DNA from: Tannerella sp.
Lineage (GTDB): Bacteria > Bacteroidota > Bacteroidia > Bacteroidales > Tannerellaceae
Length of the DNA stretch: 11,971 nt
Direction of reading: 5' to 3'
Assembly: GCA_031260095.1 (NCBI GenBank)
Contig: JAIRKN010000109.1
Coordinates: 1-11,971, forward strand
The number at the start of each line of letters is the position of its first letter. The first letter of the stretch is position 1. A program made the position numbers and the translations under genes. The notes below the pieces were generated by a model. The model made no database searches. It was not told the origin of the DNA and saw only the letters and a list, made by a program, of their open reading frames with translations. This document shows, one piece after another, positions 1-7,029 of the stretch.

Positions 1-845
1 GCATAGAACGTTAATCCGGGAATCGTTTTAATACCGAGTTTGGAGGTGATGTTTTTGCGATGTGTCAGGACGGTATTTAAGCTGATACATAAGTGTTCCG
101 CGACTTCTTTATTTGTTTCGCCTTTTACAATTTGTTTGAGTACTTCGATTTCGCGTGAAGAAAGATTTTTGCTGCCCTCTTTTTCTATTCCGCAGACTAT
201 GGGGGCGAGAATACGGTAGCGTATCCGGTTGTGTTGCTTGATATCCGTATGTAGTGTGTTGATGGCAAATATGACCGCATAACACAGGTTTTCATCATAG
301 TTGCCCGATAGATGTTTTATTATGATATGTTTTAAATCAGTAAGGAGCGCTTCCGTCGGTTCTTCAAGGTCGGGTATACTCACCGGATGATAGGTCAGGG
401 ATTTGTTTTTGGTTTGTTTTTCGCACAACCGGGTAATGTGGGGAAACCATTCGGATTCATCTGTCTCTATTCGTTCCAGGAGGCGTTTCCTGAAAGTTTC
501 GAATAACTTTCCGATAAGTGTGAGGGATTCGTTTGCAGGGTCGCTGACCGATATGAAGGAGCGCAGGTGACGTTCGATATTAGGGAGTTGTGAGTATAGA
601 TAATATTGATTTGTTTTGGTTAGATAATCAATGATCTGCGCGAGATGAAAGCCTTGAAGTTTCTTTTCCGGAAAATAACTTTCATTCAGGAACGTATTTA
701 TCATTGTAATGAAGAAATCAATATTGATATCATGTTTGTTGCATATTTCCTGTGCCGTATTTTCTCCAAGCCCGAGCCGGATGCCAAACCTGTTAATAAC
801 AGGAATGAGTGAAGGGTGTTCTTCCACCACCTCACTCATTCTCAT
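1..845 (-). CDS. LuxR-type regulator with ScdA_N/hemerythrin-like N-terminal half (C-terminus cut by window)
   Basis: Predicted DNA-binding transcription regulator, 281 complete codons visible and still open at the window edge. Residues about 228-281 are a LuxR/GerE helix-turn-helix: LSSREIEVLKQI, then NKEVAEHLCIS and NTVLTHRKNI. The N-terminal half is not a receiver domain. Residues 3-53 resemble the ScdA_N domain of iron-centre repair proteins (RIC/YtfE), and about 70-222 follow the hemerythrin-like layout of that family (QLPNIERH near 86, EWFPHI near 132, HNRIRYRILAP near 205). Aligned by eye to YtfE, the paired cysteines of ScdA_N are absent and most di-iron ligands are replaced; H205 is kept, but the partner Glu is Arg. 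It may therefore sense something without a classical di-iron site. The start is the first in-frame ATG (843-845), with a second two codons later. It lies 22 bp after the TIM-barrel gene, so it is probably co-transcribed and may regulate the unit. HTH call is firm; sensory-domain call is inference. Confidence 0.85.
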   Translation of the reverse strand, partial: MRMSEVVEEHPSLIPVINRFGIRLGLGENTAQEICNKHDINIDFFITMINTFLNESYFPEKKLQGFHLAQIIDYLTKTNQYYLYSQLPNIERHLRSFISVSDPANESLTLIGKLFETFRKRLLERIETDESEWFPHITRLCEKQTKNKSLTYHPVSIPDLEEPTEALLTDLKHIIIKHLSGNYDENLCYAVIFAINTLHTDIKQHNRIRYRILAPIVCGIEKEGSKNLSSREIEVLKQIVKGETNKEVAEHLCISLNTVLTHRKNITSKLGIKTIPGLTFY

Positions 846-867
846 ATTTGCATATATTAAAGGCAAT

Positions 868-1803
868 TTATGCTTCCTCCCATTGTTTACGGATTAGCTC
901 AACGCCGGCTGCGGCCGCTGCGTTACGGTCTTCGGCTTTGCTTCCACATTCGAAGCTGATATACTTATCAAAACCAATGATTTTCAATCCGCGGAATCCG
1001 TCCACATAATTATCCGCATCGCCGTCCTCGCCCGGCATCAGGCGTCGTTTACGACTTGCAATATGTACGTGCTGAATATACTTCCCTCCGGAGATGAACG
1101 CACCCATGTCGGACGTTTCTTCCCAGGTCATGTGCCAGAAATCGCCGAGGCATGTCACGCCCGGATTGTTGATGTCGCGACAAATGGATGCGGCGTCGGC
1201 GACCAGACGCAGATAAAACGCTTCGCGGCGGTTGAGCGGTTCGAGTATGACCGTTGTTCCGTTCTCCGTAGCAAACGTTCCGAGTTCATCAAACCATTGG
1301 CACAGAAAATCGCGCGTTTCCTGCGTATGTGGTTTCACCGGTTTTTGCGAATTGAAAGCGGGTACAATGATAACGCCGGTTGAGCCTAATGCTCCGGCGG
1401 CGGTTATGATCTCGCGCATGGAATCGCGGCACTCGTTTCGTACACTCTCTTCTTCCGATAACATGAAACCTTTGAAGCCTGCACAGATCGCGCTGATTTT
1501 AATGTCACGCCCGTTCAACGCCTGCTTCAATTCATTTACACGACCCGACAATCCGTTCCCACCGACTTCAAGCCCTTTAACGCCGAGCTTTTCCATGAAA
1601 TCCAGTTTGCCGCTGAGAGACTCTCCCTCAAGCGTCCATTCCTGGAACGAAATGTTTACATCCTTGCCTTTGCCTGTGCAGCAAGCGTCTTTGCTGTCTT
1701 TGCAGCAACTTTTTTCCTTCGTTCCTCCTCCGCAGGCGGACAAGGCTGCGCCGCCGACTGTTGCGGCGGCCGCCTTTAAAAAGTTTCTTCTGTCCAGTGC
1801 CAT
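868..1803 (-). CDS. Tat-exported lipoprotein, sugar isomerase/epimerase-like TIM barrel
   Basis: 311 residues. The N-terminus carries a twin-arginine signal (DRRNFLK, residues 4-10), a short hydrophobic stretch and a lipobox LSAC with Cys24, so the mature protein should be a lipid-anchored envelope protein. Residues about 50-310 form a xylose-isomerase-like TIM barrel (AP-endonuclease family 2). The four usual metal ligands are readable: E188 in ILEPL, D221 in GDFWH, H247 in HVHIA and E285 in SFECG. Such proteins isomerise, epimerise or eliminate on sugars and keto-sugars; the substrate cannot be read. An unusual CC-x6-CC cluster (C33, C34, C41, C42) sits between the lipid anchor and the barrel. 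The gene starts 4 bp after the stop of the lipoprotein Gfo/Idh/MocA gene, implying translational coupling and a shared pathway: oxidoreductase first, then isomerase or lyase on the keto product. Start fixed by the Tat signal. Confidence 0.88.
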   Translation of the reverse strand: MALDRRNFLKAAAATVGGAALSACGGGTKEKSCCKDSKDACCTGKGKDVNISFQEWTLEGESLSGKLDFMEKLGVKGLEVGGNGLSGRVNELKQALNGRDIKISAICAGFKGFMLSEEESVRNECRDSMREIITAAGALGSTGVIIVPAFNSQKPVKPHTQETRDFLCQWFDELGTFATENGTTVILEPLNRREAFYLRLVADAASICRDINNPGVTCLGDFWHMTWEETSDMGAFISGGKYIQHVHIASRKRRLMPGEDGDADNYVDGFRGLKIIGFDKYISFECGSKAEDRNAAAAAGVELIRKQWEEA

Positions 1804-1807
1804 GACT

Positions 1808-3241
1808 TTAACGTGTTTGGTTACCCTGAGGTTTTCCAGGAATATGGATAAAGTCGTGCAACTTAAATTCTTTCCCCGAGCCGTATCCGTTAATAGCCAT
1901 CTTGTTCTTCAGATCAATATCTTTCGGATAGAGGTCAAGCGGGGAAGCTGTCATTTCGTCCCATGTGACTTTCACACCGGTGTAGGCCGATTCGCGTCCC
2001 ATGATAGCGGCCATGTTGGCGACGGCCGTTTCGGAAGCCTGTTCGATCGGTTTCCCGCTACGGATGTGGTTGATCCAGTTCACGTGTTCCAGCGTGTACG
2101 GGTCGGTTTGCTTGTAGTTGGCACGTTCGGCTTCGCCGTCAAATACCCACACCGTATTGCCTTTCAAATCTTTGATTATGGCGTTCCCTGTTGGCGAACC
2201 GTTTGATGACCATGAGCCTTTCGTTCCTTGAAAAAATTCGCTCACGTTGCTGACCGTTTCGTGTATCTGGCGGCACATGCTGTGCACGTGAATGCCGTTT
2301 TCCATTTCAAAGTCGATACTGAAATTGTCGAACTGATTGCCCGTGACACGGCGCTGACGTGAGCCGAAGCCTACGGCGCTCTTCGGTTTTAATCCTGTAA
2401 ACCATGTTAGAACATCCAGATTGTGCACATGCTGTTCCACAATGTGGTCGCCCGACAGCCATATCCAGTTCACCCAGTCGCGGATCATCCACTCGCCGTC
2501 CGACCATCCGGGCTGGCGGTCTCTGTACCACAACATGCCGCCGTTCCAGTAAACCGTACCGCCGGTGATTTCGCCGATAGCGCCGTCCATAATCAGCTTG
2601 TAGGATTCTACATAGCTGCGCTGGTGGTGACGTTGCGTACCGGTCACGACGCACAGATTCTTTGCAGCAGCCTGTCTGGAGGAAGCCACGATCATACGAT
2701 AGCCCACGGGGTCTACGCAGATCGGTTTTTCAAGGAAAGAATGTTTCCCTTTTTCGGTTGCGTACTGGAAATGAATCGGGCGGAAATTAGGGGGAGTCGC
2801 CACGATGATGACATCTACTCCACTGTCAATAACCTGTTTGTAAGCATCTAATCCGGTGAAGCGCTTGTTTTCCGGGATGTCGATGTTCTTTTCACTTTTC
2901 AACTTGCCGGCCAAATTGTCTACCCTGTCTTTGAAGGTGTCGCCCAGGGCTGTAATTGTCACGCCGTTAGCTGCGTTCAAAAAGTTGAATGCAGCGCCGG
3001 AACCGCGTCCGCCGCAACCGATGATGCCGGCTTTCAGTTCCTTACCGTCTGTTGCAAAATCTACCAAATCAGGCACATAATATGTTCCCCGTTCTTTAAG
3101 AGGTACGTTGGCCGGAGCATTACCGCTTCCTCCGGAGCATGATGTTAACGCACTTCCGCTCCCAACCATTCCTGCTGCACCGGCAAGCGCCGAACTTTTT
3201 AAAAATGTTCTTCTACTAATACTGTTTTTTCCCTTTTTCAT
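1808..3241 (-). CDS. Tat-exported lipoprotein Gfo/Idh/MocA-family oxidoreductase
   Basis: 477 residues. Signal: SRRTFLK (residues 9-15), hydrophobic stretch, lipobox LTSC with Cys35. The Rossmann fold begins near residue 70 with GIIGCGGRG (72-80), an NAD(P)-binding glycine motif; the family lysine is in EKP (171-173). The C-terminal catalytic half has the signature GDHIVEQHVHNLD (264-276), typical of the long secreted Bacteroidetes/Planctomycetes branch. Tat use fits export of a folded protein with tightly held nucleotide, as established for Zymomonas glucose-fructose oxidoreductase. Likely reaction: oxidation, or redox-neutral oxidation/elimination/reduction, at a sugar carbon in the periplasm. 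Relatives include GH109-type NAD-dependent glycosidases and 3-keto-glycoside-forming dehydrogenases of Bacteroides, so a glycosidase role is possible. It follows the cytochrome gene by 42 bp (which includes the palindrome ATTTTTAAAAAT) and precedes the TIM-barrel gene by 4 bp. Confidence 0.9.
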   Translation of the reverse strand: MKKGKNSISRRTFLKSSALAGAAGMVGSGSALTSCSGGSGNAPANVPLKERGTYYVPDLVDFATDGKELKAGIIGCGGRGSGAAFNFLNAANGVTITALGDTFKDRVDNLAGKLKSEKNIDIPENKRFTGLDAYKQVIDSGVDVIIVATPPNFRPIHFQYATEKGKHSFLEKPICVDPVGYRMIVASSRQAAAKNLCVVTGTQRHHQRSYVESYKLIMDGAIGEITGGTVYWNGGMLWYRDRQPGWSDGEWMIRDWVNWIWLSGDHIVEQHVHNLDVLTWFTGLKPKSAVGFGSRQRRVTGNQFDNFSIDFEMENGIHVHSMCRQIHETVSNVSEFFQGTKGSWSSNGSPTGNAIIKDLKGNTVWVFDGEAERANYKQTDPYTLEHVNWINHIRSGKPIEQASETAVANMAAIMGRESAYTGVKVTWDEMTASPLDLYPKDIDLKNKMAINGYGSGKEFKLHDFIHIPGKPQGNQTR

Positions 3242-3283
3242 GATGTTTAATTTTTAAAAATGTAATGTGTATATGTTATTTTA

Positions 3284-4849
3284 TCATTTCAATATAGATG
3301 TATCCGGTTCGCAAACAATCCGAAAACCGATCCCCCGGATATCGGAATACCACCAGATGCTTTTAGGTTGTTGCGGGTCGGTTTTCAGCCATTCGTCATG
3401 ATATGTATGAGAACGTGCTGCACAACGCAAATCGGCGGCGTCCGAATTATAGAATCCTCCGCGAACGACCCATTCTTCTCCTTCGGTTGCAAGTGGGTCC
3501 GTCACGCTTTCCCCTGTTTTACTATATACATCAGATGTATATTTGTCCGCGCAATATTCCATCACGTTTCCAAGCATATTTTTTAGTCCGAACGGATTTG
3601 CCTTTACATTTTCAGGCGTCTGTGTGCGGTTATTACTGTTTTTTTCATAGACCACAAAATCACGGATTACTTCTGTCTTCGCACTGAAAAATTTGCGCAT
3701 GAACCCTTCATCCGAATAATCCTTCGGTTTTCCTTCAAAAAAGTAAGGTGTTTCCGTTCCTCCGCGCGCGGCGTATTCCCATTCTGCTTCCGTTGGCAGG
3801 CGGTACTTCTTTCCGGTCTTGAGAGACAACCATTGGCAGAATGTCTCCGCCGCATAATGGGTCATAGTAATAGCCGGACGTGAACCGCCGCCCCATCCTT
3901 GATCGGGAAATCCGAACGGAGGCGTAGGCCCTGTTATAGCGTCCACATCCGGACGGCTGTTATTGGCATATACCGTTTCGGGAGGCGTACGCCCTTCGCT
4001 CATCGTCTGTGAGTAGAATGCCCAGTATTGATCCCACGTAACTTCTACTTCCGCCATGAAAAACGGGCTTACGGTTACGTTACGTACCGGCGCTTCGTCT
4101 TCCTTGTGGAATGATTCTTTCTTATCGCTTCCCATCCTGAATACGCCTCCTTTTATGGCGATCATGTGGAATGACACAGTCGTTCCGGGAATTTGTTCGG
4201 TATAATTATCAAAAGACGTTACGACAGTTGCCGAGTCAAATACAGGGCCGTTTTCCGTACTACTTCCCGCTCCCGGTATTCCGGTCAGTTTCCCGTGGCT
4301 GTAATTCGGATTATAATGGCCTGCATCCAAGTGGCAACTTATGCACTGCAGATCAAGTTTTTTTTCGTTTTCCTCATAATAAAGGTGAGCGGTGATGCCA
4401 TCATCTGTAATACCGGAAGGGAAAAGATTCCGGTGACACTCTTTACATGATTCGTTGGGTATATATTTGATTGCATGTTCTAACTCGGATTTCATATCCC
4501 AGTTAAAATCGGCGCTATCTTTGGTCAGATAGCTCCATACATCTTTCATTCCTAATTTAACTTTTGCAGAATAGTGATTCCATGTCTGATCTTTGGGCGG
4601 TAAGTGACAGTCGACGCAATGCACTGTGACTCCGCTTCCGTTATTTACATGTACAGATTGCTTCCAACTTTCCTCCACATGCGGATGAACGTGGCATATC
4701 ATACATGATTCATCACTTGAATAATATACGGAAACCTGATAGGCTGAAACAAAAATGATAAAACCGGTAATGATTCCGAAAAAGAAAATCCACTTTTTCT
4801 TTCCCTTTTTCTTCTTACCGTCGTATCTTAGTCTACCCATTCTACCCAT
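3284..4849 (-). CDS. Membrane-anchored tetraheme NapC/NrfH-like cytochrome c fused to an FGE/SUMF1-like domain
   Basis: 521 residues. A lysine-rich cytoplasmic tail is followed by one membrane helix (about 19-39) and a periplasmic part. Residues 46-185 are a NapC/NirT/NrfH-type tetraheme domain with four CxxCH sites: CMICH 49-53, CVDCH 78-82, CKECH 135-139 and CISCH 169-173. That family takes electrons from menaquinol and passes them to periplasmic partners. Residues about 227-515 are a formylglycine-generating-enzyme-like domain: GGVFRMGS, RLPTEAEWEYAARGG (350-364), GNVMEYCADKY, VVRGGFYNS and a closing GIGFRI. Of the catalytic cysteine pair (C-x4-C) of true FGE, only the second seems kept (C476 in RCAARS); the first falls on A471. 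No sulfatase gene is nearby, so I infer a binding or structural domain, not formylglycine formation. It overlaps the preceding Gfo/Idh/MocA gene by 22 bp (13 bp if the second ATG at 4838-4840 is used). Confidence 0.9.
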   Translation of the reverse strand: MGRMGRLRYDGKKKKGKKKWIFFFGIITGFIIFVSAYQVSVYYSSDESCMICHVHPHVEESWKQSVHVNNGSGVTVHCVDCHLPPKDQTWNHYSAKVKLGMKDVWSYLTKDSADFNWDMKSELEHAIKYIPNESCKECHRNLFPSGITDDGITAHLYYEENEKKLDLQCISCHLDAGHYNPNYSHGKLTGIPGAGSSTENGPVFDSATVVTSFDNYTEQIPGTTVSFHMIAIKGGVFRMGSDKKESFHKEDEAPVRNVTVSPFFMAEVEVTWDQYWAFYSQTMSEGRTPPETVYANNSRPDVDAITGPTPPFGFPDQGWGGGSRPAITMTHYAAETFCQWLSLKTGKKYRLPTEAEWEYAARGGTETPYFFEGKPKDYSDEGFMRKFFSAKTEVIRDFVVYEKNSNNRTQTPENVKANPFGLKNMLGNVMEYCADKYTSDVYSKTGESVTDPLATEGEEWVVRGGFYNSDAADLRCAARSHTYHDEWLKTDPQQPKSIWWYSDIRGIGFRIVCEPDTSILK

Positions 4850-5997
4850 TTTCTGTCATTATCATAGCCTGCGGCTATCATTGTTTCAATGAATTGCATA
4901 CCACGTACTCCATCATAAACATTGGGGAAGTCAAGATATTCCGCTTTTGGCGTTTCTCCGGCGATACGCGCCTTAACCGTTAATGCGAAATTTCTGTAAA
5001 TGTTTGCAAATGCTTCGATGAATCCTTCCGGATGTCCTCCCGGTATGCGGATATTCCATTTTGCCGGATCGCTCAGGTAGGCATATCCGTTTCCGATTCT
5101 TATTTCTTGTGTAGGACTGTCCGCCCACTTGGCGTATAATGTGTTAGGTTCCATCTGTTTCCATTCCAACCCGCCTTTTTCACCATAAATACGTATGCGT
5201 AAATTATTTTCTTCTCCGGTTGCTATTTGTGAGGTTTGTAATATTCCTGTTACCCCGTTTTCGAAATGCATGAATGCCGCCGCATCATCATCAATAGGCC
5301 TTCCGGGGACAAATGCTTTTAATTCCGCACAAATCTCTGTTACTTTAAGCCCTGTTACATATTCGCTCAAATGCCAGGCATGTGTGCCGATATCGCCTAC
5401 ACATCCACCTTTGCCCGAAGTTTTCGGGTTCGTACGCCATCCGGCATTATTACCTCCCTCCAATTCAATGCGCCGGGCAAGCCATCCCTGTGAATATTCA
5501 ACGAAGACACGACGTATTTTACCAAGGTCACCGCGCGCTATACGTGCTTTGGCTTCTTTTATGGCAGGATATCCGCTATATACATGTGTCAGGGCCAGTG
5601 TACGTCCGTTTTTTTCTACTTTTTCCTGTAATGCTTTGGCCTCTTCCAGCGAGAAGGTCATAGGTTTATCGATCACAACATCATAGCCATGATCCAATGC
5701 CATGGCAGCAGGTTCGTAATGTACGTGATTCGGCGTAACGACAACAACAAACTGCATGCGTTCGTCATCAGGCAATAATGCTTCTTTTTCAAACATCTCG
5801 TGATAGGTTTCGTATATACGATCATCCGAGACTGAGTAGTAACGTCCGGATTTATAGGATATTTCCGGGTTGATACTGAAACATCCGCAAACCAATTCGA
5901 TCTGACTTTCCATTAAGGCGGCACGTATGTGGACAGAACCAATAAATCCATCCAATCCTCCTCCTATGATTCCCATGCGTAACTTTTTGTTTCCCAT
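4828..5997 (-). CDS. Cytoplasmic Gfo/Idh/MocA-family oxidoreductase
   Basis: 389 residues, no signal peptide, so cytoplasmic. The N-terminal Rossmann fold starts with MGIIGGGLDGFIG (8-20), followed by TPNHVHYEPA and the DKP motif (110-112; K111 is the usual catalytic lysine). The C-terminal half has GDIGTHAWHL (201-210), with D202, H206 and H209 matching the catalytic D-x3-H-x2-H pattern of this family, and GHPEGF near 321. These are NAD(P)-dependent dehydrogenases of sugars, inositols and deoxysugars; the exact substrate is not readable. It is the first gene of the minus-strand unit and its end overlaps the cytochrome start. It differs clearly from the exported homologue downstream, so the unit appears to have one dehydrogenase on each side of the inner membrane. 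I infer that it handles the imported product, or reduces what the exported enzyme oxidised. Start at the only Met before the Rossmann strand. Confidence 0.9.
   Translation of the reverse strand: MGNKKLRMGIIGGGLDGFIGSVHIRAALMESQIELVCGCFSINPEISYKSGRYYSVSDDRIYETYHEMFEKEALLPDDERMQFVVVVTPNHVHYEPAAMALDHGYDVVIDKPMTFSLEEAKALQEKVEKNGRTLALTHVYSGYPAIKEAKARIARGDLGKIRRVFVEYSQGWLARRIELEGGNNAGWRTNPKTSGKGGCVGDIGTHAWHLSEYVTGLKVTEICAELKAFVPGRPIDDDAAAFMHFENGVTGILQTSQIATGEENNLRIRIYGEKGGLEWKQMEPNTLYAKWADSPTQEIRIGNGYAYLSDPAKWNIRIPGGHPEGFIEAFANIYRNFALTVKARIAGETPKAEYLDFPNVYDGVRGMQFIETMIAAGYDNDRKWVEWVD
4832..4849. repeat. 9-bp perfect tandem duplication at the gene overlap
   Basis: TCTACCCAT occurs twice head to tail (4832-4840 and 4841-4849). 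On the minus strand the unit encodes WVE/WVD at the end of the upstream oxidoreductase and MGR/MGR at the start of the cytochrome, so it duplicates the cytochrome start codon. Confidence 0.95.
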
Positions 5998-6041
5998 GTT
6001 ATTGTGCTGTTTATATTGTTAATAGTTCTTTTTTTAGGGCA

Positions 6042-6071
6042 TAAAATTAATGGATTATTTTTATATGCAAA
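6042..6071 (-). promoter_or_regulatory. Candidate Bacteroidetes promoter for the redox operon
   Basis: Read on the minus strand: TTTG (plus 6068-6071), an 18-bp spacer, then TAATTTTA (plus 6042-6049), one base off the TAnnTTTG element. The predicted start lies about 35-40 bp before the first oxidoreductase ATG. The spacer is a base or two short of the usual 19-20, so this is tentative. Confidence 0.35.
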
Positions 6072-6155
6072 AATGAATAGAAAAAAACACACGTCTTTTA
6101 TAGAAGATTAACTTATCTTTGATAATAGAAATCGAAAATTTATGTTTGTATTGTT

Positions 6156-6191
6156 CTAAAAATCTGCATAATGTTTTGCTAAAAATGCAGA
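6156..6191. repeat. Overlapping inverted and direct repeat in the divergent intergenic region
   Basis: TCTGCAT (6163-6169) and ATGCAGA (6185-6191) are exact reverse complements, 22 bp centre to centre (about two helical turns). The same two places also carry a direct repeat CTAAAAAT (6156-6163 and 6179-6186). It lies between the operon start and the lptB promoter, so it may be an operator or simply AT-rich coincidence. The rest of 5998-6294 is AT-rich and holds only the two promoter candidates. Confidence 0.5.
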
Positions 6192-6230
6192 ATACGGATT
6201 GCGTTTGACTACAAAAATAAGCAGGTTTAT

Positions 6231-6261
6231 TTTGTACTTCTCCCGGCTTGCACTATATTTG
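6231..6261 (+). promoter_or_regulatory. Bacteroidetes-type promoter of lptB
   Basis: TTTG (6231-6234), 19-bp spacer, TATATTTG (6254-6261): a full match to the TTTG/TAnnTTTG consensus of the Bacteroidetes primary sigma factor. The transcript should begin around 6267-6271, too late to include the upstream TTG at 6199 and practically on the ATG at 6271. This favours ATG 6295 as the lptB start, with a leader of about 25 nt. Confidence 0.75.
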
Positions 6262-6294
6262 TCCCCATATATGGAAAATGTAGAAAGACAGCAG

Positions 6295-7029
6295 ATGATT
6301 CTGCGGACGGAAGATCTGGTTAAGAAATACCGCAACCGGACGGTTGTGAATCACGTATCCGTCAATGTAAAGCAGGGTGAAATAGTAGGATTACTCGGGC
6401 CTAATGGTGCGGGTAAGACAACCACTTTTTATATGACCGTAGGTCTTGTAACTCCTAATAATGGTAAGATTTTTCTTGATGATTTGGAGATTACGGATTA
6501 TCCGGTTTATAAGCGTGCCCGTCAGGGTATCGGTTACCTGGCTCAGGAGGCCTCTATTTTTCGTAAAATGACGGTGGAAGATAATTTAAAGGCGGTTCTT
6601 GAAATGACGGACAAACCGAAAGATTATCAGAAAGAGAAGATAGAAAGTCTGATTGATGAGTTCGGTTTGCATAAAGTGAGGAAGAATCTTGGCGATCGTC
6701 TTTCGGGAGGTGAACGTCGTCGCGCGGAGATCGCCCGGTGTCTGGCTATAGATCCTAAATTTATTATGCTTGACGAGCCTTTTGCCGGAGTGGATCCGAT
6801 TGCCGTACAGGATATACAAACAATCGTTGGTCGTCTTAAACATAAAAATATCGGAATCCTGATAACCGATCACAATGTTCATGAAACATTGAGTATAACC
6901 GATCGTGCCTATCTCCTGTTTGAAGGAAAAGTTTTATTCCAGGGAACAGCCGAAGAACTGGCGGCCAATGAGATTGTTCGTGAAAAATACTTAGGACGCG
7001 ATTTTGAACTTCGAAAGAAAACCTTATAG
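6295..7029 (+). CDS. lptB: LPS export ABC transporter ATP-binding protein LptB
   Basis: 244 residues from ATG 6295, close to the usual 240 or so for LptB. It is the cytosolic ATPase that, as a dimer with LptF and LptG, drives lipopolysaccharide from the inner membrane to the Lpt bridge. All ABC motifs are intact: Walker A GPNGAGKT (35-42), Q-loop Q84, signature LSGGE (136-140), Walker B FIMLDEP (156-162) and switch His193 in TDHN. The opening [16 protein letters not shown] and the [13 protein letters not shown] stretch are typical of LptB. The frame stays open upstream to a TTG at 6199, and an ATG at 6271 would add eight residues, but the promoter position and the conserved N-terminus support 6295. 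No partner Lpt gene lies in the window. It ends 8 bp from the convergent CPBP protease gene. Confidence 0.95.

Follow-up and report, generated by a model that had tools for sequence, protein, structure and literature searches.

A Conserved Pair of a Tetraheme Cytochrome and an Exported Gfo/Idh/MocA Dehydrogenase in Bacteroidales, with a Possible Role in Sugar Oxidation

The Cyt-GfoB Pair

We analyzed a contig of Tannerella sp. (JAIRKN010000109.1; G000:C8 in our genome collection) over its entire length of 11971 bases, hereafter the window. An earlier note on this DNA had proposed a redox system of five same-strand genes. The five genes are real and all lie on the minus strand: GfoA, Cyt, GfoB, TIM and a LuxR-type regulator (Table 1). 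Cyt, a tetraheme cytochrome with a fused FGE-fold domain, and GfoB, an exported Gfo/Idh/MocA dehydrogenase, form a conserved two-gene unit in Bacteroidales, which is strongly supported by the counts below. TIM, the adjacency of GfoA and the regulator are accessory to this unit. The pair suggests an undescribed route in some members of the gut-associated Bacteroidales, by which sugars oxidized beyond the inner membrane would feed electrons into respiration. In our overall reading GfoB oxidizes a periplasmic glycoside or sugar and Cyt passes the electrons to menaquinone, and we put the odds of this at about even (roughly 0.5).

Conservation and Co-occurrence

Presence thresholds (E ≤ 1e−60 for Cyt, E ≤ 1e−40 for GfoB) were fixed on a first sample of 149 genomes, in which the Cyt-positive and GfoB-positive sets were identical, with 19 genomes each. 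A sample of 344 Bacteroidales genomes, which includes those 19, held 44 genomes with both genes, none with Cyt only, one with GfoB only (G357) and 299 with neither. The 44 genomes span 19 family labels. The Fisher p-value for co-occurrence, 5e−55, ignores phylogeny and reads only as "not chance." Scoring was confined to the four best first-look candidates of each genome; the copy numbers are therefore minimum values, and an occasional gene may have been missed. In the phylum sample, Cyt was found in 0/197 other genomes at E ≤ 1e−60, weaker relatives not being sought; the 20 of these genomes that were listed are all "same class."

Gene order is retained as well. GfoB lies directly downstream of 46/51 Cyt copies. 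We also assembled a locus set (n = 99) from the best 80 of 319 confirmed stretches and 19 loci of the order sample. The 80 are the closest relatives of the window and are not independent, and the genome sample is the better test. By gene clustering 96/99 of these loci contain GfoB, and in 95/99 it immediately follows Cyt on the same strand. Two of the four exceptions (L012 and L019) are short contigs in which TBLASTN finds GfoB in place; the other two (L106 and L108) are real. In L108, Cyt is followed by the two genes that served as SusC/SusD queries, a name given by look and not by domain search.

The earlier note had taken a cytochrome mostly found without the oxidoreductases as evidence against its system. 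That refutation fails: no sampled genome has Cyt only, and the lipoprotein GfoB nearly always stays beside the cytochrome. The genomes that share this order are related and adjacency can persist, as would be expected if Cyt and GfoB were merely co-inherited neighbors with no common reaction. Families f20, f43 and f79, however, each include a genome that carries both genes and another that carries neither, six of the seven two-Cyt genomes have GfoB beside each copy, and the order is kept at ~45–50% protein identity. We regard simple co-inheritance as barely credible and Cyt and GfoB as very likely one functional unit.

Cyt: Heme Domain and FGE-fold Domain

Cyt matches the NapC/NirT profile PF03264 at 88.1 bits (cut-off 24.1) and the FGE-sulfatase profile PF03781 at 135.2 bits (cut-off 23.3). 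It belongs to the NapC/NirT/NrfH proteins and carries an FGE fold. Both domains occur in at least 120 Cyt protein matches, that is, in all 120 among the matches listed. The four CXXCH motifs begin at residues 49, 78, 135 and 169 and are kept in 100/100 aligned sequences, and with the membrane helix at residues 15–43 they bear out the four-heme membrane cytochrome of the earlier note. Conserved residues beyond the hemes include K96 (100/100) and D103 (99/100). Profile matches cover the NapC, NrfH and TorC families. Cyt is not an NrfH as defined by TIGR03153, for which it scores 66.2 bits, under the equivalog cut-off of 134.2. In NrfH a Met follows heme 1 (CXXCHxM), and the corresponding position in Cyt is His55 in 100/100 sequences.

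The structure model of Cyt has a mean pLDDT of 67.8 over the whole chain. Searched by sequence against the PDB, the heme half alone matched neither NrfH nor NapC at E values up to 10, and the structure-comparison rows cover residues 209–517. The assignment of the heme half therefore comes from Pfam and NCBIfam. We rejected a role of Cyt in nitrite respiration on the CXXCH counts of the nearest neighbor genes in 19 diverse loci, among which a second multiheme pair was seen only in L119. That pair (~4202–6303) consists of opposite-strand genes of 491 and 202 aa near Cyt, with four CXXCH each, and recalls NrfA/NrfH in size and motif only.

The FGE-fold domain does not have the catalytic Cu-binding Cys pair of FGE (human C336 and C341). 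When Cyt was aligned to the human FGE chain there was no Cys at either place, one of which is a gap, and Cys is not among the common residues in alignment columns 466–475 of 100 Cyt sequences. FGE maturase activity was rejected on the absence of this pair and of any sulfatase-type C-x-P/A-x-R motif in Cyt, GfoB, TIM and GfoA. The domain might still be the catalytic center, for example PvdO- or EgtB-like and fed by the hemes, with GfoB only supplying or consuming its substrate. We consider this improbable: the Cys pair is missing, no conserved set of metal ligands was identified, and the fold also occurs in proteins with a structural role, PorK among them. Cyt presents an FGE fold recruited beside an electron-transport domain.

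GfoB: an Exported Dehydrogenase

GfoB contains PF01408 and PF22725 and matches the TAT_signal profile at 26.2 bits (cut-off 22.7). It has the Rossmann fold with GxGxxG, the EKP motif and the C-terminal alpha/beta domain of Gfo/Idh/MocA proteins. G75, G77 and E171-K172-P173 are found in 97/97 aligned sequences and G80 in 96/97, and each residue of GxGxxG, EKP and an HxHxxD segment is kept in 95 to 97 of 97. The simple lipobox pattern fits 82/97 sequences, although R10, R11 and Cys35 occur in 97/97. Membership in BT_2158_fam (NF058561) was rejected because GfoB reaches 23.5 bits where the cut-off is 750, which places it in another subfamily. None of its 11 PDB sequence matches is named GH109, and no search with a GH109 model was made.

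GfoB outnumbers its partner, with at least 79 copies in 45 genomes vs. at least 51 Cyt copies in 44. Paralogs have expanded in some genomes with a single Cyt, to seven in G038 (ten candidates scored) and four in G467. Among 20 unlinked GfoB paralog loci, one of which gave no GfoB gene call, nine have another keto-sugar-type gene, a weak contrast. Multiple copies would fit several substrate-specific dehydrogenases that share one cytochrome.

Link to Keto-sugar Genes

The earlier note had connected the window to keto-sugar chemistry, and the gene content of Cyt-positive genomes agrees. In the first sample BT_2158_fam (E ≤ 1e−60) occurs in 33/149 genomes, 32 of them above the family cut-off, and is found in 18/19 genomes with Cyt vs. 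15/130 without. The single Cyt-positive genome that lacks it, G011, is 61% complete. GfoA homologs (E ≤ 1e−40) occur in 18/149 genomes, 17/19 with Cyt and 1/130 without (G118); G023 and G043 have Cyt and no GfoA homolog. Their identity to GfoA is 39–71% outside the window's genome, and the weaker ones may not be orthologs. TIM homologs (E ≤ 1e−40) are found in 8/149 genomes, namely in 8/19 with Cyt and 0/130 without. Many of these genes lie on a contig other than that of Cyt (11/17 for GfoA and 3/8 for TIM). Thus, the association is not simple operon hitch-hiking.

Neighborhoods point the same way. In L186, TIM and GfoA homologs lie beside DUF1080-type and BT2158-family genes, and in L187 and L188 GfoA adjoins a BT2158-family gene. 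In L110 the gene immediately after Cyt-GfoB encodes a DUF1080 protein (PF06439, 3-keto-disaccharide hydrolase), and L106 and L107 have ThuA close to Cyt. A gene for any TIM, DUF1080, ThuA, other Gfo or GfoA was found in 26/38 Cyt loci vs. 3/20 control windows, and a TIM barrel gene in 20/38 vs. 1/20, where the controls were hand-picked from long contigs of Cyt-positive genomes, with round numbers as their coordinates, and are not a random draw. Five of the tested loci (L106, L107, L110, L112 and L114) supplied part of the queries for the TIM types, DUF1080, ThuA and other Gfo. With these excluded, any such gene is found in 21/33 loci and a TIM type in 16/33, against the same 3/20 and 1/20. Cyt-GfoB probably works in keto-sugar metabolism.

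Proposed Mechanism and Electron Path

GfoB would be exported folded by Tat and held in the envelope by a lipid anchor. There it may oxidize a hydroxyl, probably at C3, of a periplasmic glycoside or sugar using tightly held NAD. The electrons would pass to the Cyt hemes and on to menaquinone in the inner membrane. The FGE-fold domain most likely docks a partner or a substrate. Where present, metal-dependent TIM barrels or DUF1080 hydrolases may cleave or isomerize the keto-glycoside, and GfoA, predicted to be cytosolic, would reduce the keto-sugar with NAD(P)H. We place GfoB, TIM/DUF1080 and GfoA in this sequence because the Agrobacterium tumefaciens operon discussed below acts in an analogous order. 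Our data show that the genes are conserved and co-occur, that catalytic motifs and heme sites are intact and that keto-sugar genes go with the pair; we infer the substrate, NAD retention, the direction of electrons, the GfoB-Cyt contact and the step from hydride to single electrons.

There is no free NAD in the periplasm, so GfoB must pass its electrons on in some other way. Menaquinone (~−0.07 V) accepts electrons more readily than the ketone/alcohol couple (~−0.2 V) and flow from sugar to quinone is therefore favorable. We hold it tentatively, at a little under even odds, that electrons run from GfoB to the quinone. The converse is a form of anaerobic respiration in which menaquinol, via Cyt, supplies GfoB with electrons for the reduction of a keto-sugar or another carbonyl compound. 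The profiles that Cyt matches are those of quinol oxidase families (NapC, NrfH and TorC), which would fit such a direction. Yet ketone/alcohol couples lie below the potential of menaquinone, which would make the reduction uphill, and the DUF1080 and ThuA neighbors look catabolic. We think reverse flow quite unlikely.

Nicotinamide donates a hydride and hemes accept single electrons. No flavin-binding or Fe-S domain is among the Pfam matches of Cyt, GfoB, TIM and GfoA, and a search of the same four proteins for an ApbE-type flavinylation motif found none, on which we rejected their flavinylation. Thus, no known hydride-to-heme converter is recognized. One way around this, which we find rather doubtful, is that the nicotinamide is a fixed prosthetic group of GfoB whose hydride-derived electrons go straight to the Cyt hemes without a flavin, with the keto-sugar as a shuttle. 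If true, the keto-sugar and cytosolic GfoA would carry NAD(P)H electrons across the membrane to menaquinone.

There are also hints of a periplasmic flavin carrier between GfoB and Cyt. An ApbE-type gene lies beside Cyt in 4/80 closest loci, all of Dysgonomonas (L052, L064, L065 and L079; Pfam for L065 only). TIM-like and ApbE-like genes are close by in L189 and L192, which are BT2158-type loci of genomes without Cyt; in L189, DUF1080 and TatC genes were confirmed by Pfam. A carrier of this kind is a live possibility because ApbE-type genes adjoin Cyt or BT2158-type genes.

GfoB might instead be redox-neutral, like GFOR (glucose-fructose oxidoreductase) or NAD-dependent glycosidases, with the product or a second sugar re-oxidizing the bound NAD. 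Cyt would then reset dead-end NADH or serve a separate step, for example the oxidation of an enediol product. The structural neighbors of the GfoB model include GFOR (1h6d, 1rye and 1ofg) and aldose-aldose oxidoreductase (5a02 and 5a03). In the model ~30 residues separate lipobox Cys35 from the Rossmann fold, much like the arm of GFOR. The unrecognized converter also speaks for a redox-neutral enzyme. This reading alone leaves unexplained why Cyt is present in 44/45 genomes with GfoB, mostly in one gene order. We judge it unlikely, if a serious alternative.

Several observations weigh against oxidation by GfoB with Cyt as the outlet, in addition to the missing converter. NapC/NrfH proteins are known mainly as quinol oxidases, which is the opposite direction, and GFOR-type enzymes do without a cytochrome because a second sugar recycles their bound cofactor. 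The model of the heme half of Cyt is of low confidence. The BT2158-type family in 15/130 Cyt-negative genomes means that keto-glycosides can be used independently of Cyt. G357 has GfoB without Cyt, and the Cyt of G467 (L149) and the second Cyt of G112 (L108) have no adjacent GfoB. In G088, G475 and G387, all of one genus, GfoB lies within ~5 kb of Cyt and not directly downstream on the same strand. Finally, no ResB match was found in 3/19 Cyt-positive genomes, G011 (61% complete), G032 and G146 (96%), which leaves heme attachment in these three unexplained. In favor of the reading, a CcsBA-type cytochrome-maturation gene directly follows TIM in 4/80 closest loci (L052, L065, L074 and L079; label confirmed by Pfam in three of the four). 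This ties cytochrome maturation to the cassette in those loci.

Comparison With Known Systems

Cyt resembles NrfH, NapC, TorC and CymA in having PF03264, one membrane helix and four heme sites. Unlike them it bears a fused FGE-fold domain, and its partner is a Gfo/Idh/MocA enzyme and not a nitrite, nitrate or trimethylamine N-oxide reductase. His55 in place of the Met after heme 1 sets it apart from NrfH. GfoB shares structural similarity and a Tat-exported Gfo fold with glucose-fructose oxidoreductase of Zymomonas. The latter retains its nicotinamide, as is proposed for GfoB. It is soluble and recycles the cofactor by itself, and we know of no cytochrome partner. LacABC, the glucoside 3-dehydrogenase of Caulobacter and Agrobacterium, combines a GMC-type flavin dehydrogenase with a small cytochrome subunit; to our knowledge it includes neither a NapC-type cytochrome nor an FGE domain. 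As described in PMC9007349, LacABC is membrane-bound and oxidizes its substrate to 3'-ketolactose in the periplasm, much as is proposed for keto-sugar oxidation here.

The GlycDH-AtOGE-AtHYD-Gfo operon of A. tumefaciens encodes a dehydrogenase, a Mn-dependent TIM eliminase, a probable TIM hydratase and a Gfo reductase, according to PMC10628242. Oxidation, a TIM-barrel step and reduction by a Gfo protein follow in turn, as proposed for the window. The first oxidation in A. tumefaciens is by a flavoenzyme, unlike the exported Gfo protein and tetraheme cytochrome in the window.

A close parallel within Bacteroidales is BT2156–BT2160 of Bacteroides thetaiotaomicron, which likewise has an exported Gfo/Idh/MocA enzyme. 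BT2158 is described as a periplasmic glycoside 3-dehydrogenase (PMC11300592) and the DUF1080 protein BT2157 as a 3-ketotrehalose hydrolase (PMC9007349), and mutants that lack BT2157 or BT2158 are reported to grow unimpaired on sugars of the raffinose family (PMC11501099). The earlier note had cited a cluster of Gfo/Idh/MocA enzymes and a TIM-barrel protein of this species that breaks glycosides. PMC9007349 credits the hydrolysis of 3-ketotrehalose to BT2157, though TIM-type genes do occur in BT2158-type loci. BT2158-type genes elsewhere have TIM-barrel and DUF1080 neighbors as found near Cyt-GfoB, with the TIM type in L189–L192. In contrast to the window, no Cyt-type gene is labeled in L189–L192, which come from the four Cyt-negative genomes with the strongest BT2158-type matches, and GfoB belongs to a different subfamily from BT2158.

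Keto-sugar chemistry in the envelope, which the earlier note had proposed for the window, was already known from BT2158, as described in PMC11300592. The new elements are the cytochrome and the GfoB subfamily. An exported sugar dehydrogenase with a quinone-linked cytochrome is a known kind of system, and both parts here come from unexpected families. Full-text searches of open-licence papers, judged by the titles and opening lines of abstracts among the hits listed, turned up no account of the Cyt-GfoB pair. Nor did the open-licence literature searched say where the electrons of exported, nicotinamide-dependent sugar dehydrogenases of Bacteroidales go. Cyt, present in 44/45 sampled genomes with GfoB, is a named and deletable candidate for this outlet. 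If the reading is true, it would provide a respiratory outlet for glycoside breakdown in genera that include Parabacteroides, Tannerella and Dysgonomonas.

Locus Layout and Accessory Genes

The host assembly is 1.83 Mb in 284 contigs and 73.3% complete. Within the genome collection it is closest to metagenome-assembled genomes of Tannerella sp., with a Cyt identity of 87–88%. The gene junctions are −22 (GfoA/Cyt), +42 (Cyt/GfoB) and +4 bp (GfoB/TIM), as the earlier note gave them. Its final value of +22 (TIM/regulator) holds from an internal ATG at 845; a TTG at 866 gives +1, which is more likely because this start fits the N-termini of homologs (MPLVYPNM in L026 and MSLVYANM in L015). By consensus matching there is no terminator-like site at the minus-strand junctions, which agrees with the earlier note, and a promoter-like site lies directly ahead of Cyt (4889–4861; consensus match only).

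Table 1. Genes and sequence features of the window.
Feature	Position	Strand	Basis
GfoA, Gfo/Idh/MocA oxidoreductase, 389 aa	4828..5997	-	Domain profiles and PDB match
Cyt, NapC/NrfH-like tetraheme cytochrome with fused FGE-fold domain, 521 aa	3284..4849	-	Profiles, CXXCH, model
Cyt single N-terminal membrane helix, residues 15–43	4721..4807	-	Structure model and hydrophobic sequence
Cyt heme site 1, CMICH, then invariant His55	4691..4705	-	H53 and H55 in 100/100
Cyt heme site 2, CVDCH	4604..4618	-	Alignment
Cyt heme site 3, CKECH	4433..4447	-	Alignment
Cyt heme site 4, CISCH	4331..4345	-	Alignment
Cyt FGE-fold domain, Pfam match residues 228–484, without catalytic Cys pair	3398..4168	-	Pfam, structure comparison, alignment
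GfoB, exported (Tat, lipobox) Gfo/Idh/MocA dehydrogenase, 477 aa	1808..3241	-	Profiles, model, alignment
GfoB twin-arginine R10-R11 to lipobox Cys35	3137..3214	-	R10, R11 and C35 in 97/97
TIM, AP_endonuc_2 TIM barrel, Tat-type signal and lipobox, intact metal site; accessory	868..1803	-	Profile, structure, alignment
RIC-like/LuxR regulator, cut by contig end; lineage-specific accessory	1..866	-	Profiles, neighborhood counts

The five genes are not a fixed set as had been proposed. The TIM gene is found in 70/80 and the regulator in 55/80 closest loci; the regulator is present in only 2/38 diverse Cyt loci. TIM is not a constant neighbor of the cytochrome and GfoA is often unlinked, as the counts above show. 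The two genes do overlap in a number of Tannerella loci. No Tat signal or lipobox was seen in GfoA, it matches PDB entry 3v5n (E 3.2e−93), and at 36.3 bits against the cut-off of 750 it falls outside BT_2158_fam NF058561.

TIM matches the AP_endonuc_2 profile at 100.3 and has structural matches to 3kws (E 2.8e−136) and 6wn6 (E 6.3e−20). Of the two Tat and lipobox signals in the earlier note, that of GfoB is clear; the Tat match of TIM (20.2 bits) is below the Pfam cut-off of 22.7 and above that of NCBIfam (16.7), with the twin Arg in 73/73 homologs and the lipobox pattern in 55/73. The candidate metal ligands E188, D221, H247 and E285 are each kept in 73/73, the ligand set of sugar epimerases and eliminases; we take these residues to be the ligands by comparison with D-tagatose/psicose epimerases. 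Just past the lipobox is a Cys-rich stretch (1678–1707), which some relatives have in varied form and others lack.

The regulator is incomplete, since the window is the entire contig. It has a GerE domain (59), in keeping with the LuxR type, and a RIC-like stretch. The likeness to RIC is partial: residues 11–212 score 47.6 bits for RIC/ScdA TIGR03652, under the cut-off of 204.7. The regulator is one protein in the window, where a RIC-like N-terminal part is joined to GerE, and also in the T. forsythia-type locus L015. In Parabacteroides gordonii (L026) there are separate neighboring genes, a RIC-like gene of 236 aa (11940–12650) and a GerE gene of 196 aa (12654–13244).

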